From positions 1 to 34,829 of the forward strand of contig DQTE01000244.1 in the NCBI GenBank assembly GCA_015662905.1: a stretch of 34,829 bases of DNA, in the 5' to 3' direction. The notes beneath the pieces were generated by a model. That model ran no database searches, was not told the DNA's origin, and saw nothing but the letters and a program-made list of their open reading frames with translations. The position numbers and the translations under genes were made by a program. This document shows positions 1-27,963 of the stretch, piece by piece. This stretch comes from Crocinitomix sp. (lineage in GTDB: Bacteria; Bacteroidota; Bacteroidia; Flavobacteriales_D; Crocinitomicaceae). The stretch's first letter is position 1. Every line of letters starts with the position of its first letter.

Positions 1-185
1 ACACCAATAAAAAAATAAAAAAGACAGTGAGTAATTGGTGTAGCGCAGGTTTGAGACACGCAAACACCTGTATAAACGCAGACAGGTGGTTAGTATCGAA
101 AAACAGGCCTGCCTTTGTCGGCAGACAGGCATTCTTAATAATGGCGTGCAGTTTGGCTTTGCAGTAGAAGATACTTGCGGATTTA
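1..185 (-). repeat. Dispersed intergenic repeat, copy 1 (cut by window start)
   Basis: Read on the minus strand from 185 downward, this segment matches 27741 onward on the plus strand. An ungapped 77-bp block (185 down to 109) has about 61 identities, and a second block (65 down to 34) matches 27853-27884 in 31 of 32 positions. The middle is different in the two copies. The edge at 174-185 (cttgcggattta) is the same motif that closes copy 2. The copy begins 9 bases after the eno stop codon. Inside it, ctgcc (109-113) and ggcag (120-124) form a hairpin, and cacctgt (65-71) pairs with acaggtg (82-88). The far end lies outside the window. No coding frame is evident. It may act as a 3' end or terminator for eno, which is inference. 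Confidence 0.8.
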
Positions 186-22291: not shown

Positions 22292-22299
22292 TACCTTTG
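22292..22299 (+). promoter_or_regulatory. Promoter of the cobalamin uptake operon, -7 element
   Basis: TACCTTTG is a full match to the Bacteroidota -7 box and lies directly in front of the riboswitch, so the transcript would begin near 22304, just before the first conserved riboswitch segment. A clear -33 TTG at the right distance is not seen. Confidence 0.7.
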
Positions 22300-22302
22300 T
22301 GG

Positions 22303-22468
22303 CGAATATTGGTTCGACCATAGGGTTGATTAAAATGGGAATCAGGTGAAAAACCTGAGCTGTTCCCGCAACTGTAAGTGTTAAACGCTATTAACCAAAC
22401 CACTGTCTTTTACTTTAAGGCGGGAAGGGGTTAAGAGTATAGCACGAGCCAGGAGACCTGCCACTATT
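22303..22468 (+). ncRNA. Cobalamin (B12) riboswitch
   Basis: The conserved elements occur in the right order: ggttcg (22311-22316, the GGUGCC-like segment), aaaatgggaatcaggtgaaa leading to the P4/P5 junction and tgttcccgcaactgt, then ccactgt and gggaagg, and finally the B12 box agccaggagacctgcc (about 22447-22462). The aptamer senses adenosyl- or other cobalamins and normally lowers expression of uptake or synthesis genes when B12 is plentiful. The expression platform is not certain. Downstream, aggtct (22507-22512) is complementary to agacct within the B12 box, and gcttt/aaagc (22479-22495) forms a small hairpin, so alternative pairing around the B12 box is possible. Boundaries are approximate. 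Confidence 0.93.
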
Positions 22469-22576
22469 CAAAAACAACGCTTTCGGGATAAAAGCAAAGT
22501 TTAGATAGGTCTTTTTAATTAGAATTAGGGCTTATTTATTCTATTGATTTTATTCCTTTTAAATTATTATTAACCC

Positions 22577-22606
22577 GTTAAACATTAAAACAATAATTTG
22601 TTTAAC
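22577..22606 (+). promoter_or_regulatory. Hairpin in the riboswitch leader close to the first start codon
   Basis: gttaaaca (22577-22584) and tgtttaac (22599-22606) form a perfect 8-bp stem with a 14-base loop, ending 17 bases before the ATG at 22624. It lacks a T-run, so it is not a standard terminator. It could affect access to the translation start, which is inference. Confidence 0.35.
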
Positions 22607-22623
22607 ACAAAAATTTTAAAAGG

Positions 22624-23595
22624 ATGAAAAGAATTTTACTTTTTGCAACTGCACTTGTTCTAGGTGCTAACACTATGGCACAAAATGCCGATTTTGAATT
22701 ACCTTTAAGTGGCAGTGATACTGCTTGGTTTGGACAAACCACTACTAATGCTAGTGGAGACACAACTTTTACCAATGGTTATTTTACCTTTGAAAACAAT
22801 TACAACTCAGGTTGGGGAAGTTGGTCAGGTTGGGCTTACTCTAATGACACAGATGCCTCAACATCAGGTTACGCTAACCAATTTGGAAATATAACAGGTT
22901 CTGGAGAAAGCTCTACTCAGTTTGGAGTGTTTTTTCAATCTTTTACAGGAAAAAATAGAATTTTTACAAATACCCCTGTAAATTTAAGTGGGGCTTATTT
23001 TACTAATACAACCTACGCTTATTTTTCAATGTTAAATGGGGATTCATTTGCCACTCAATTTGGTGACACTTCAAACGCTAGTGGTGGAGCAGATTGGTTT
23101 TTATTAACCATTTATGCATTAGACAGTGACACCCTTCATACGGGAGATTCTGTTAACTTTTATTTGGCTGATTACAGGTTTACTGACAACACTCAAGATT
23201 ATATTATAAATACTTGGGAGTGGGTTGACCTCTCATCATTAGGGACAGTATCAGGTTTAGATTTTAAATTAACCTCATCAGATGTTGGTCAATTTGGAAT
23301 GAATACACCTGCATATTTTGCAATGGACAATTTGACAATTGATTTTGCTAACATTAATGATAATAATTTCTCAACACAAAGCATTTATCCAAATCCAACA
23401 ACTGGAATTTTAAGTGTTAATACTAATGAAAACTCAACTATTAGTATATTTAACATAAACGGACAACTTATCCGTTCAGTTAAAACACAAAATTCAACAA
23501 CTACACTTGATTTGTCAGATTTAGATAACGGAATTTACTTTATCCAAGTTGAAAACAAAGGTGTCATTACAACTCAAAAAGTGGTTAAACAATAA
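22624..23595 (+). CDS. DUF4465 (BtuH-like) surface protein with T9SS sorting domain
   Basis: The 323-residue protein has a signal peptide cleaved around MAQ (about residue 20), a DUF4465-type body (about 22-240) and a C-terminal T9SS type A sorting domain (about 253-323, IYPNPTTGILSVNTNENS through NGIYFIQVEN). The body shows the family's landmarks: WSGWAYSNDTDASTSGYANQ, STYAYFSM-like segment with GDSFATQFG, DWFLLTIYALD, VNFYLADYRFTDNTQDYI, WVDLSSLG and FGMNTPAYFAMDNL. From memory, DUF4465 proteins of gut Bacteroides B12 loci bind cobalamin at the cell surface (BtuH); I have not verified this here. It is the first gene after a cobalamin riboswitch and precedes the TonB receptor by 45 bases. 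Most likely it captures corrinoids after T9SS export. Confidence 0.88.
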   Translation: MKRILLFATALVLGANTMAQNADFELPLSGSDTAWFGQTTTNASGDTTFTNGYFTFENNYNSGWGSWSGWAYSNDTDASTSGYANQFGNITGSGESSTQFGVFFQSFTGKNRIFTNTPVNLSGAYFTNTTYAYFSMLNGDSFATQFGDTSNASGGADWFLLTIYALDSDTLHTGDSVNFYLADYRFTDNTQDYIINTWEWVDLSSLGTVSGLDFKLTSSDVGQFGMNTPAYFAMDNLTIDFANINDNNFSTQSIYPNPTTGILSVNTNENSTISIFNINGQLIRSVKTQNSTTTLDLSDLDNGIYFIQVENKGVITTQKVVKQ

Positions 23596-23640
23596 CACTT
23601 TTTCATAGTTTTTCAAATTAATTTTGGTTAACAATTAAAG

Positions 23641-25623
23641 ATGCAATTAAAGATTTACATATTAGTTTTTAGTTGCGTCTTTTTTTTTGGTATTAACGCA
23701 CAAATCATTGAAAAAGATACTTTAAACACTGTAACGGTTTTGGCAAAAAAGGATTCTATTTTAAAACTGACTGTTATAACCTCTAACGTGCCACATTACG
23801 TTATTAACAATGATAAATTAAATGAAATATCGGCTAACGATATTGGAGACGCGTTGAAATATGTTCCAGGTACTTATATCAAAGATTATGGCGGGATTGG
23901 GGGATTAAAAACTGTGTCATATCGTAGTTTGGGAGCTTCACATACCTCAGTAGAAGTTGACGGGATTATACTACCAACAACTCAAACCGCTGTTGTTAAC
24001 TTATCATCTTTTGATGTCTTTTCTACTCAACAAATTGAAATGACTTCAGGGCAGGTACAAAATCATTTTTCTACAGCAAGTGCTTATGTTAAATCAAATA
24101 TTCTATCTATCCAAAGTCAATTAAATACTATACCTAATAATAAATATAATCTGAAATTGATGGGATTAACTAACAGCATAAATTCATATCAAAACGGTGT
24201 TTTTTATCAACAAAAAATAACTTCTAAATTGTCTTTAGGCATTCAAGGATTGGCTACTTATGGTAGTGGAAAATATTCTTTTAGTATTCAAAATGTGGAT
24301 AGTACTTATACGGCTGTTCGTCAAAATGCAGATTTGACAAATTACAACATTAGGGGAGGTTTTACTTACAAGGCATCACATTTAAAAGTATTTTTAAACG
24401 GAAGTTATGTCAATAATTTTCAACAACTACCAGGGGCAGTTGTTTTATACAATCCCTTTAACGACCAAACACTAGCTAAAACAATTCGTAATACTGCTTT
24501 AAATGTTCAATATAAAAAGAACAAATATGCTATAGGTTTTAATGCTTTTAATCAACAGAGCTTAACAACTTACAGAGATAATCAGTTTTTAAATCAACAA
24601 GGTTTTTTAGAAAATAATTATGACAATAACACTTTTGGTACAGGTGTTATTATGATTAGATTTTTAAATACAGAAACTCAAAAAATATTTTTAGGAGGAG
24701 ACCTATTATTATCCTCTTTAAAAGGTAGTCAATTTATGGTAATGCCAACACGAATTGGTGTGAACTCTGTTTTAGGTCTATCAAAATGGTGGCGTCGTTT
24801 TAAAATTCAAGGTAATGTTAGTCATCAATGGATTAAGGATATTACACCAACAGATACAAATTATATTTCTCACTTTTCGCCATTCATTTCAATTTCATAT
24901 TTACCAATTAAAAACAAGCAGATTAGGTTTAGAACCCACTATAAAAACACCTATCGGCAACCCTCTTTTAATGATTTGTACTATAACTTTATTGGCAACA
25001 AAAACTTAAAGGCTGAAAATGCACAGAGTTTTAATTTTGGATTTACCTATGGTAAAACTATAAGGGCTATACACATTGAATCTACCATAGACGTTTACCA
25101 AAACAATATTAAGGATAAAATTGTAGCTATTCCAACCAAAAATTTATTCAATTGGAGTATGCAAAACATAGGTAACGTTTTAAGCAGAGGATTAGATTTG
25201 AATATTTTATTTACTATAAAAAAACACAAACACAAAATTTCATTTTCAACAGGACATTCTTTAAATGCATCTATAGATGTTACCGACAAAAATAGCCCTA
25301 CTTACAGACATCAAATACCATATACACCTAACTATTCAGGAAATTATACGTTTACTTATGGTTTTAAAAAAACATTTTATACTTTAACCGTGTTACATTC
25401 TGGTAGCAGATACATTTTAAATGAAAATACACCCTATAATTTATTAGACGGATTTATAGATATTGGTTTTGCAATAAGTAAGACTTTTCTATTTAAACAT
25501 CAAAGTTTTTATTGTAATTTACAAGGCGCTAATTTACTAAACAAGAACTACGAAATGATTAAAAGTTATCCAATGCCGGGGAGACATATTAGAATAAAGG
25601 TAGTTTATCAATTTAACAAATAA
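23641..25623 (+). CDS. btuB: BtuB-like TonB-dependent cobalamin receptor
   Basis: An outer-membrane gated beta-barrel predicted to import cobalamin with energy from TonB-ExbBD. The 660 residues begin with a signal peptide ending near NAQ (19-21). A possible TonB-box region follows (DTLNTVTVLA, 26-35), then the plug domain (about 45-140, with IGDALKYVPGTYIKDYGGIG and VSYRSLGASHTSVEVDGI) and a 22-strand-type barrel ending in GRHIRIKVVYQF. It has no carboxypeptidase-like N-terminal extension. The substrate is inferred from the upstream riboswitch and the BtuG-like gene that starts 4 bases after its stop codon. A related metal-chelate specificity cannot be excluded from sequence alone. Confidence 0.88.
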   Translation: MQLKIYILVFSCVFFFGINAQIIEKDTLNTVTVLAKKDSILKLTVITSNVPHYVINNDKLNEISANDIGDALKYVPGTYIKDYGGIGGLKTVSYRSLGASHTSVEVDGIILPTTQTAVVNLSSFDVFSTQQIEMTSGQVQNHFSTASAYVKSNILSIQSQLNTIPNNKYNLKLMGLTNSINSYQNGVFYQQKITSKLSLGIQGLATYGSGKYSFSIQNVDSTYTAVRQNADLTNYNIRGGFTYKASHLKVFLNGSYVNNFQQLPGAVVLYNPFNDQTLAKTIRNTALNVQYKKNKYAIGFNAFNQQSLTTYRDNQFLNQQGFLENNYDNNTFGTGVIMIRFLNTETQKIFLGGDLLLSSLKGSQFMVMPTRIGVNSVLGLSKWWRRFKIQGNVSHQWIKDITPTDTNYISHFSPFISISYLPIKNKQIRFRTHYKNTYRQPSFNDLYYNFIGNKNLKAENAQSFNFGFTYGKTIRAIHIESTIDVYQNNIKDKIVAIPTKNLFNWSMQNIGNVLSRGLDLNILFTIKKHKHKISFSTGHSLNASIDVTDKNSPTYRHQIPYTPNYSGNYTFTYGFKKTFYTLTVLHSGSRYILNENTPYNLLDGFIDIGFAISKTFLFKHQSFYCNLQGANLLNKNYEMIKSYPMPGRHIRIKVVYQFNK

Positions 25624-25627
25624 AGTT

Positions 25628-26683
25628 ATGAAAAGTATATTTATTATTATTGTTTTATTCTTAACCTTTACAGCTTGTAAAAAAGACAAGCCACAACCAA
25701 GTACAACTGAATCTACTTATACCAATGGTGTGCTATGTATGAATGAGGGGTTATTTCAACAAAACAATGCAAGTTTATCATATTATAGCTTAGATAGTAA
25801 TAAAGTTATTTCTCACATTTTTCAAAAAATTAATGGTAGAGGCCTGGGAGATACCGCTAATGATATGATTGAATACACATATAACGGCAAAAGATATATA
25901 GCCATTGCAGTAGATATATCCAGCCAAGTTGAGATTTTGACTTACGAAAATTTAAAGTCTGTTAAACAAATACCTGTGTTTAATGGAAATATGGCGAGAG
26001 AACCAAGAGCACTACAATTTTACAACGACAAACTCTATTCTATCAACTTTGACGGTACTGTTAGTGTAATTGATTTAACTACTTATTCAATTATTCAAAA
26101 CATATCTTGCGGAGTAAACCCCGACAATGCAGTTATTATCAATAATTTGATGTATATTGTAAATTCAGGCGGGTTAAATTATCCCGTATATGATAGTACC
26201 ATAAGTGTTTTAAACTTAAACACACTCTTGGTAACAGATACTGTCATAACAGCTATTAATTGTTCGCAAATTGTAGCTGATGCCCAAAATGAGATATACG
26301 TTTTATCAAGAGGAAATTATAGTAACATATTACCCAAATTACAACGTATAGACCCAATAACAAATCAAGTTATACAGGAGTTTAATATCGAAACTTATGA
26401 AATGACGTATTTTAACGACAAAATTTATTACTTTAATGATGCCGACAGTAAAATATACACTTTTAATACCACAACAGAAAGTGTTGAAGGACCATTAATA
26501 GACTGTTCAAACTATCAAAATATTTATGGTATTCAAATAGACGAAATCAATCAATTAATTTACACCAATGATGCCAATGGTTACGTCAACTCTTCAACCA
26601 TAAGATGTTATGATATGAATGGGAGCTTTAAATACGAGTTTGACACCGACTTGAATACAGGCAAATTGATATTTATGAATTAA
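25628..26683 (+). CDS. btuG: BtuG-like beta-propeller lipoprotein (YncE/DUF5074-type)
   Basis: The 351-residue protein has a lipoprotein signal peptide with Cys17 in LTFTACKKDK, then repeated blade-like segments of the YncE/NHL kind, for example LYSINFDGTVSVIDLTTYS, NLMYIVNSGG, STISVLNLNTLLV and EIYVLSRG. In Bacteroides, BtuG is a seven-bladed surface lipoprotein that binds B12 very tightly and caps BtuB; the same gene pair and order are seen here. The lysine and aspartate just after the lipid-anchored cysteine would fit a surface-export signal, but this is inference. It starts 4 bases after btuB, so the two are translated from one mRNA. I could not confirm the number of blades by eye. Confidence 0.82.
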   Translation: MKSIFIIIVLFLTFTACKKDKPQPSTTESTYTNGVLCMNEGLFQQNNASLSYYSLDSNKVISHIFQKINGRGLGDTANDMIEYTYNGKRYIAIAVDISSQVEILTYENLKSVKQIPVFNGNMAREPRALQFYNDKLYSINFDGTVSVIDLTTYSIIQNISCGVNPDNAVIINNLMYIVNSGGLNYPVYDSTISVLNLNTLLVTDTVITAINCSQIVADAQNEIYVLSRGNYSNILPKLQRIDPITNQVIQEFNIETYEMTYFNDKIYYFNDADSKIYTFNTTTESVEGPLIDCSNYQNIYGIQIDEINQLIYTNDANGYVNSSTIRCYDMNGSFKYEFDTDLNTGKLIFMN

Positions 26684-26711
26684 ATAATACCTTAAATAAA
26701 AACAAAAAATT

Positions 26712-27689
26712 ATGAGAGCTATTTTAATATTATCGTTAGTTTTTGGACTACAACCTATGGCAAGTGCCCAATATGCCCCACCAGCAGGACAAACAGGCAC
26801 AACAGCAATTCACAAAGATTCATCTGTATTTGTAAACTGGGCAACAGGAGTCACTCAATTTTCAAGAGGGTTTATGGATATTGCCGACCCATCATTAGGA
26901 TTAGTAACATTTGGAGATTCATCAGTCGCTATTGGACAGGCTGAAGGAACAAATTCTGGAGTAGTGAGTTTGGGTGATTCAGGTAGCATTACACTATCAT
27001 TTCAATATCCTATAATTAATGGGTCTGGTTTTGATTTTGCAATTTTTGAAAATGGATTTAGTGATACTTTTTTAGAATTAGCTTTTGTTGAAGTAAGTAC
27101 TGACGGTATAACTTATATTAGATTCCCATCAGTATCTTTAACACCCGAAAATGAAATTGGTGGTTTTGGTTCGCTTGATGCCACAAATTTATATAACTTT
27201 GCAGGTAAATACAGAATTGGTTATGGCACCCCGTTTGATTTAGAAGACATTGTTGATTCTACTGGTATAGACATTAATAATATTAATTATGTTAGACTAA
27301 TTGATGTTGTAGGAACAACAAATCCACAGTACGCTACCTATGACAGTCAAGGTAATATAGTAATAGACCCTTATTCTACACCATTTTCAAGTGGAGGATT
27401 TGACTTAGATGCTATTGGAGTGATAAATGAAAACCAGAACGCTTACATTAAAGATAACTCATTAGCTTCATTCATTTCTGTTTTTCCTAACCCCTCTTAT
27501 GGTAATTTAAACATTAAAAGCATTAAATCTGGCTTTTTAAATATTTACGATATGAGTGGAAAAAAAGTATTTAATAAAACCTGTATTGGAAATGAAACTA
27601 TATTTATAAATTCACTAACAAAAGGGATCTATTTAATAAAGTTTGAATTTGATGAGGGTATAGAAACAAAAAAAATAATCGTTCAATAA
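26712..27689 (+). CDS. T9SS-sorted secreted protein of unrecognised family in the B12 operon
   Basis: The 325 residues have a signal peptide ending near ASA (17-19), a body of about 230 residues and a T9SS type A sorting domain from about 255 (SVFPNPSYGNLNIKS, MSGKKVF, LTKGIYLIKFEF). The body does not resemble DUF4465. It has a jelly-roll-like beta pattern with marks such as GFDFAIFENGF, LELAFVEVSTDGITYIRFPS, EIGGFGSLDATNLYNFAGKY and GGFDLDAIGVINE. I have the impression that proteins of this type recur near B12 receptors in Bacteroidota, but I cannot prove it here. It lies 28 bases after btuG with no promoter between, so it is the last gene of the riboswitch-controlled unit. A role in corrinoid binding is inference. 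Confidence 0.75.
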   Translation: MRAILILSLVFGLQPMASAQYAPPAGQTGTTAIHKDSSVFVNWATGVTQFSRGFMDIADPSLGLVTFGDSSVAIGQAEGTNSGVVSLGDSGSITLSFQYPIINGSGFDFAIFENGFSDTFLELAFVEVSTDGITYIRFPSVSLTPENEIGGFGSLDATNLYNFAGKYRIGYGTPFDLEDIVDSTGIDINNINYVRLIDVVGTTNPQYATYDSQGNIVIDPYSTPFSSGGFDLDAIGVINENQNAYIKDNSLASFISVFPNPSYGNLNIKSIKSGFLNIYDMSGKKVFNKTCIGNETIFINSLTKGIYLIKFEFDEGIETKKIIVQ

Positions 27690-27740
27690 AACTTCACTAT
27701 AAAGATTTTTAAACGCATAAGATATCTTTAAAAAAAACCT

Positions 27741-27930
27741 TAAATATGCAAGTTTTTTCTACTGCATAGCTAAAGTGCGCACCATTATTGGGAATACCTG
27801 TCTACCGAAAAAGGTAAGCTCACTTTTCAGGACTCACGATAATTAATGCTCTGTTTGCGTGTCTTAAACCTGCGCTACACCAATATTGACGTACATTTTG
27901 ACTTTTACAACGAACAATCTTGCGGATTTA
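27741..27930 (+). repeat. Dispersed intergenic repeat, copy 2 (complete)
   Basis: This copy has terminal inverted repeats: taaatatgcaag (27741-27752) and cttgcggattta (27919-27930) match in 10 of 12 positions when one is reversed. It aligns with copy 1 near eno over 27741-27817 without gaps (about 79 percent identity) and over 27853-27884 (31 of 32). The central part differs. A small hairpin tacc/ggta (27803-27816 region) corresponds to tgcc/ggca in copy 1. No frame codes for a protein, and no clear target-site duplication is visible. It starts 51 bases after the last gene of the B12 operon and ends before the tRNA promoter. A MITE-like element or a family of transcribed 3' elements are both possible. 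Confidence 0.75.
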
Positions 27931-27963
27931 ATATAAAAAAATAAAAATATTTTTTAATTTTAT

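Follow-up and report, generated by a model that had tools for sequence, protein, structure and literature searches.

The repeat found at two places in a 34,829-nucleotide stretch of Crocinitomix sp. DNA (hereafter the window, which is one entire contig, G000:C84, of a 2.97 Mb genome in 335 contigs) is very probably, at roughly 85%, a MITE that is moved in trans by an IS1380-family transposase. The repeat represents a new family of an ordinary, known type of bacterial element, and it adjoins genes through landing between them and not as a part of gene ends.

Results

An earlier note had reported that two copies of the repeat in the window resemble one another, and this similarity is real. When the reverse complement of positions 1–189 was compared with positions 27737–27935, we found a 101 bp ungapped block with 76 identities (window 189–89 against 27737–27837) and a second block of 33 bp with 32 identities (66–34 against 27852–27884). 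The scores of these blocks (46 and 31) are far above the maximum of 14 obtained among 300 random window pieces. The boundaries given previously (1–185 and 27741–27930) required slight correction: copy 1 occupies positions 1–188 on the minus strand and copy 2 occupies positions 27738–27933 on the plus strand. The inverted ends "taaat..gcaag" noted for copy 2 belong to a real terminal inverted repeat (TIR), CCTTAAATCYGCAAGTAT, of which they are only a part.

Copy 1 consists of the A-end part of the element only. End A lies at position 188, with the TIR (CTTTAAATCCGCAAGTAT) at 171–188 on the minus strand, and the element is truncated by the contig edge; the missing B-end part, which makes up about 120 bp of the 310 bp consensus, lies beyond it. 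The remaining sequence is 98.4% identical to consensus positions 3–188. The adjacent TAATA (189–193) is presumed to be the single visible copy of a 5 bp target duplication, the partner side of which falls outside the contig; as a flank signature it fits the TWWWA pattern described below. The eno (enolase) coding sequence follows at 194–1477 on the minus strand, and its stop codon (194–196) is 5 bp from the repeat, not 9 bp as first reported.

Copy 2 is 196 bp long and internally deleted, with two ends present: end A (CCTTAAATATGCAAGTTT) at 27738–27755 on the plus strand and end B (TATTAAATCCGCAAGATT), which has a degenerate tip, at 27916–27933 on the minus strand. Its flanks, AAAAA on the left (27733–27737) and TAAAA on the right (27934–27938), form a candidate target duplication that matches at 4/5 positions and is weak, being of low complexity. 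The copy starts 48 bp (previously given as 51 bp) past the stop (27689) of the final gene in the riboswitch-headed B12 operon. In that region (22293–27689), a cobalamin riboswitch (Rfam score 110.6) heads a four-gene stretch that encodes, in order, a sorting-signal protein, an outer-membrane receptor-like protein, a lipoprotein-like protein, and another sorting-signal protein. An Rfam scan of the window returned this riboswitch and two tRNAs only, with no match to the repeat itself.

The repeat had been described as found twice, and a whole-genome search instead shows dozens of copies, with at least 40 matches to copy 1 and at least 44 to copy 2. The shared terminal motif ACCTTAAATCYGCAAGTAT has 104 genome matches when up to 3 mismatches are allowed, compared with 2 for the reversed control. 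We classified ends in 73 contigs, each taken in part, as type A (TIR then CTTCTACTGCAAAG) or type B (TIR then GTTCGTAGCGAAA), and counted 51 A and 47 B ends with a loose cut-off and 48 A and 45 B ends with a stricter cut-off (0.77). The copy number in the Crocinitomix sp. genome is at least about 50. In fifteen elements, spanning 97–324 bp, an A end is paired with a B end on a single contig. The consensus element is 310 bp long, which lies within the MITE size range of about 50–500 bp, and contains no transposase coding sequence; its tips are identical at 18/18 positions, and at 25/34 across the first 34 bases. Many copies are internally deleted, some of them between short repeats, which explains the "variable centre" seen when the window copies were first compared, and several are one-ended remnants. 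Because the aligned pieces range from about 72% to 100% identity to the consensus, the family includes both old and young copies. For 43 ends a contig edge is no more than about 400 bases away, the contig stopping inside or just past the element, and the family is in part responsible for the fragmented state of this MAG. A search of plasmid and phage collections with the repeat gave no match.

The insertion sites share a signature. In 75 outer flanks, T is found at position −5 in 64 and A at position −1 in 61, giving the pattern TWWWA. Exact 5 bp duplications flank 3 of the 15 both-ended copies in this genome (TAACA, TTTTA, and GTAAA; the copies lie on C14, C114, and C198); four further copies match at 4/5 positions, bringing the count to 7/15 at this threshold, and the flanks of the other 8 are clearly mismatched (3/5 or less). 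A permutation test gave p = 0.01 for exact duplications and p = 0.008 for matches of at least 4/5. The number of exact matches obtained with 5 bp at the CCTTAAAT boundary was not exceeded at other duplication lengths or offsets; a 4 bp duplication shifted out by one also gives three, which are contained in the same copies. Both-ended elements in two other Bacteroidota MAGs have exact 5 bp duplications in every case (6/6: TAATA, GAAAC, CTTAT, TTAAA, TTAAA, and TAGTA), which establishes that the repeat has transposed.

These two MAGs (JAJRQN010000099 and JALWYP010000432) were identified in one scan of organism-named genome contigs, and the genome of the former contains nine DNA matches to the family. 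Among 240 genomes of the taxonomic family of Crocinitomix sp., many motif copies are present in the home genome only. In another MAG, the first 60 bp or so of end A are 76–90% conserved, in contrast to a variable centre. It is conceivable, if unlikely, that this segment does more than bind transposase, for instance as an RNA or regulatory module that host genes use, or as a long-lived cross-genus element. At another locus (L089, G128:C133:2567–2613), a 47 bp near-palindrome consists of this TIR present twice, with almost nothing in between.

The earlier note had proposed a search for a transposase with matching ends. IS1380-family fragments in this genome have the ends CCTTAAATCYGCAAaact and YCTTAAATCCGCAAGTTA, the first 14–16 bp of which are common to the MITE. 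Their outer flanks carry T at −5 in 9/12 cases and A at −1 in 12/12, and so are of the same target type. A transposase start adjoining the first of these ends matches the NCBIfam IS1380 model at 1.5e-9 over 68 residues, and C-terminal IS1380 transposase pieces lie near the YCTTAAATCCGCAAGTTA end; C-terminal parts are located at C295 and C83. The matches of the fragments to NF033539 (1.5e-9, 7.5e-20, and others) are all short of the curated cut-off, and a comparison of a short transposase fragment with Pfam produced nothing useful. An intact transposase of the matching IS1380 type is absent from this assembly, as all of the copies are deleted, frame-broken, or cut by a contig edge, and none was found in the two other MITE-bearing MAGs. 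The MITE interior is unrelated to IS1380 sequence, which indicates that the MITE cannot be regarded simply as an internally deleted IS.

Two intact IS1380 relatives are present in other genera of the same taxonomic family. One has the ends CCTTAAATCCGTAAGTG on both sides, a length of 1647 bp, and an open frame of 435 aa; the other, in G108, has the ends CCACAAATCCGCAGGT and CCTCAAATCCGCAGGT, a length of 1596 bp, an open frame of 441 aa, and a duplicated TTGTA. These two relatives score 202 and 215 bits against an NCBIfam cut-off of 180. Both (L133 and L134) lie in palindromic surroundings (CGCGA-TTGTA-TCGCG; CCCGATAA...TTATCGGG), which suggests a taste for hairpin targets.

Several loci in the home genome combine or modify these sequences. 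The locus G000:C83:8295–8597 (L141) is a chimera in which a B end and about 70 bp of MITE sequence are joined to the gene segment for the C-terminal portion of an IS1380 transposase, and at G000:C119:4543–5182 (L091), a 173 bp MITE copy is nested in an internally deleted IS1380 copy. A 152 bp element at G000:C95:15692–15843 (L094) has IS1380-type ends on both sides and is an internal-deletion derivative of the IS, constituting a second, rarer type of MITE. An IS1380-type element of another kind, in which GCATAATGCGGGTTAAA directly follows the gene, is truncated at C295:9095–9463 (L131) and internally deleted at C101:16253–16564 (L154).

By a simple ORF call, about 6% of positions in the sampled contigs are intergenic, and 4/93 ends were flagged as lying inside an open frame. 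The earlier note had also raised the possibility that the repeat is a mobile 3′-end/terminator module. In its broader form, this reading would make the repeat a mobile or genomic 3′-end module, a terminator or mRNA-stabilising hairpin that is placed after operons in a fixed orientation. Both window copies do follow a stop codon in the same orientation, ends that face the 3′ end of a gene are close to it (in many cases less than 30 bp away, although gene calls came from a simple script and not from a gene finder, and single distances may be off), and the RNA fold of the 310 nt consensus is a strong one (−91.3 kcal/mol; z = −6.6 relative to shuffles). However, the 85 scorable ends divide into 41 that face a gene 3′ end and 44 that face a 5′ end, a division that does not differ from the one given by random intergenic points (42% 3′; p = 0.27), and A and B ends are alike in the gene orientation that they face (23:20 for 3′ versus 5′ among A ends and 18:24 among B ends; Fisher p = 0.39). 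These counts show that there is no rule by which the repeat lies after operons in the same orientation, and the agreement between the two window copies is a coincidence; random placement and orientation of the other copies is the outcome that had been named in advance as counting against a 3′-end role. In addition, the fold of copy 2 is weak (z = −1.6), and what makes the consensus fold strongly is for the most part the long inverted repeat that is needed for transposition. We therefore consider a 3′-end module very improbable. Local transcript effects, including transcript ends in single copies, are possible, but not as a rule for the family.

Alternatively, the MITE could be moved by a transposase of another family with a similar TIR, its resemblance to IS1380 being convergent. 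The lack of an intact matching IS1380 transposase here and in the other two host MAGs is in keeping with this explanation, as is the unrelated interior of the MITE. Set against these points are the approximately 15 identical terminal bases together with the same 5 bp TWWWA target type, the nesting and chimeras of MITE and IS1380 in C119 and C83, and the recurrence of the end motif on the intact IS1380 copies of sister genera, and we regard a mover from another family as improbable. The repeat is also palindromic, extragenic, and multicopy, as would be expected of REP/RAYT-type repeats, which a Y1 tyrosine transposase disperses, but that transposase (PF01797) is absent from the genome, and the elements have TIRs and 5 bp target duplications. 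Y1 transposition is not known to make target duplications, and their presence refutes this reading, to which we attach next to no probability.

Discussion

The initial suggestion of a MITE-like family is borne out by the terminal inverted repeats, the dozens of copies, the 5 bp target-site duplications, the non-coding sequence, and the match of the first 14–16 bp to the ends of broken IS1380 copies in the same genome. With regard to the enzyme responsible, captured IS1380 elements in Pseudomonas have been found experimentally to leave direct repeats of 4 or 5 bp, and the elements described in that account include ISPa33a (16/16 IR, 4 bp) and ISPsp9 (21/18 IR, 5 bp) (PMC4133298). Together with the shared ends, the common target type, the intact relatives, and the nesting and fusion in C119 and C83, these captures lead us to infer from sequence comparison that an IS1380 transposase is the likeliest mover of the MITE. 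Such a DDE transposase, supplied in trans, would recognize the TIR (CCTTAAATCYGCAAGTAT) at both ends, excise or copy the element, and insert it at TWWWA sites with the formation of a 5 bp duplication. Surviving insertions would be intergenic because, we propose, those inside genes are removed by selection. If the link to IS1380 is correct, an intact IS1380 of this species is expected to have the ends CCTTAAATCYGCAAGT.

Recognition of the family adds a MITE that is tied to IS1380, and it can prevent such repeats from being misread as operon terminators. In the portions of the open-access literature that were searched, we found no description of an IS1380-linked MITE, which is not proof of absence.

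The repeat resembles the IS1380 family (NCBIfam NF033539, Pfam PF13701) in its terminal bases (CCTTAAATCCG), its 5 bp duplication, and its TNNNA target, and it differs from that family in lacking a transposase gene and in having an interior of its own. MITEs that carry the TIRs of a resident IS are well known, including in Bacteroidota (PMC4596501, PMC9769881). The Porphyromonas gingivalis MITEs (BrickBuilt, MITEPgRS, and MITE239/700) are likewise short, multicopy, non-coding elements of a Bacteroidota host with resident-IS TIRs, but they are linked to the IS5 family (GAGAC.../ACGTC... ends), whereas the present repeat is linked to IS1380 (PMC4596501). MITECca01 of Cardinium, which is about 240 bp long, similarly has TIRs of a resident IS (ISCca4), by means of which it spread; it belongs with the IS982 family and is derived from its parent by deletion, in contrast to the unrelated interior found here (PMC9769881). 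Finally, the Type II MITEs of Anabaena sp. 90 are also multicopy and mostly intergenic; no matching IS was found for them (PMC3542288), whereas the ends of the Crocinitomix sp. family match IS1380 remnants.
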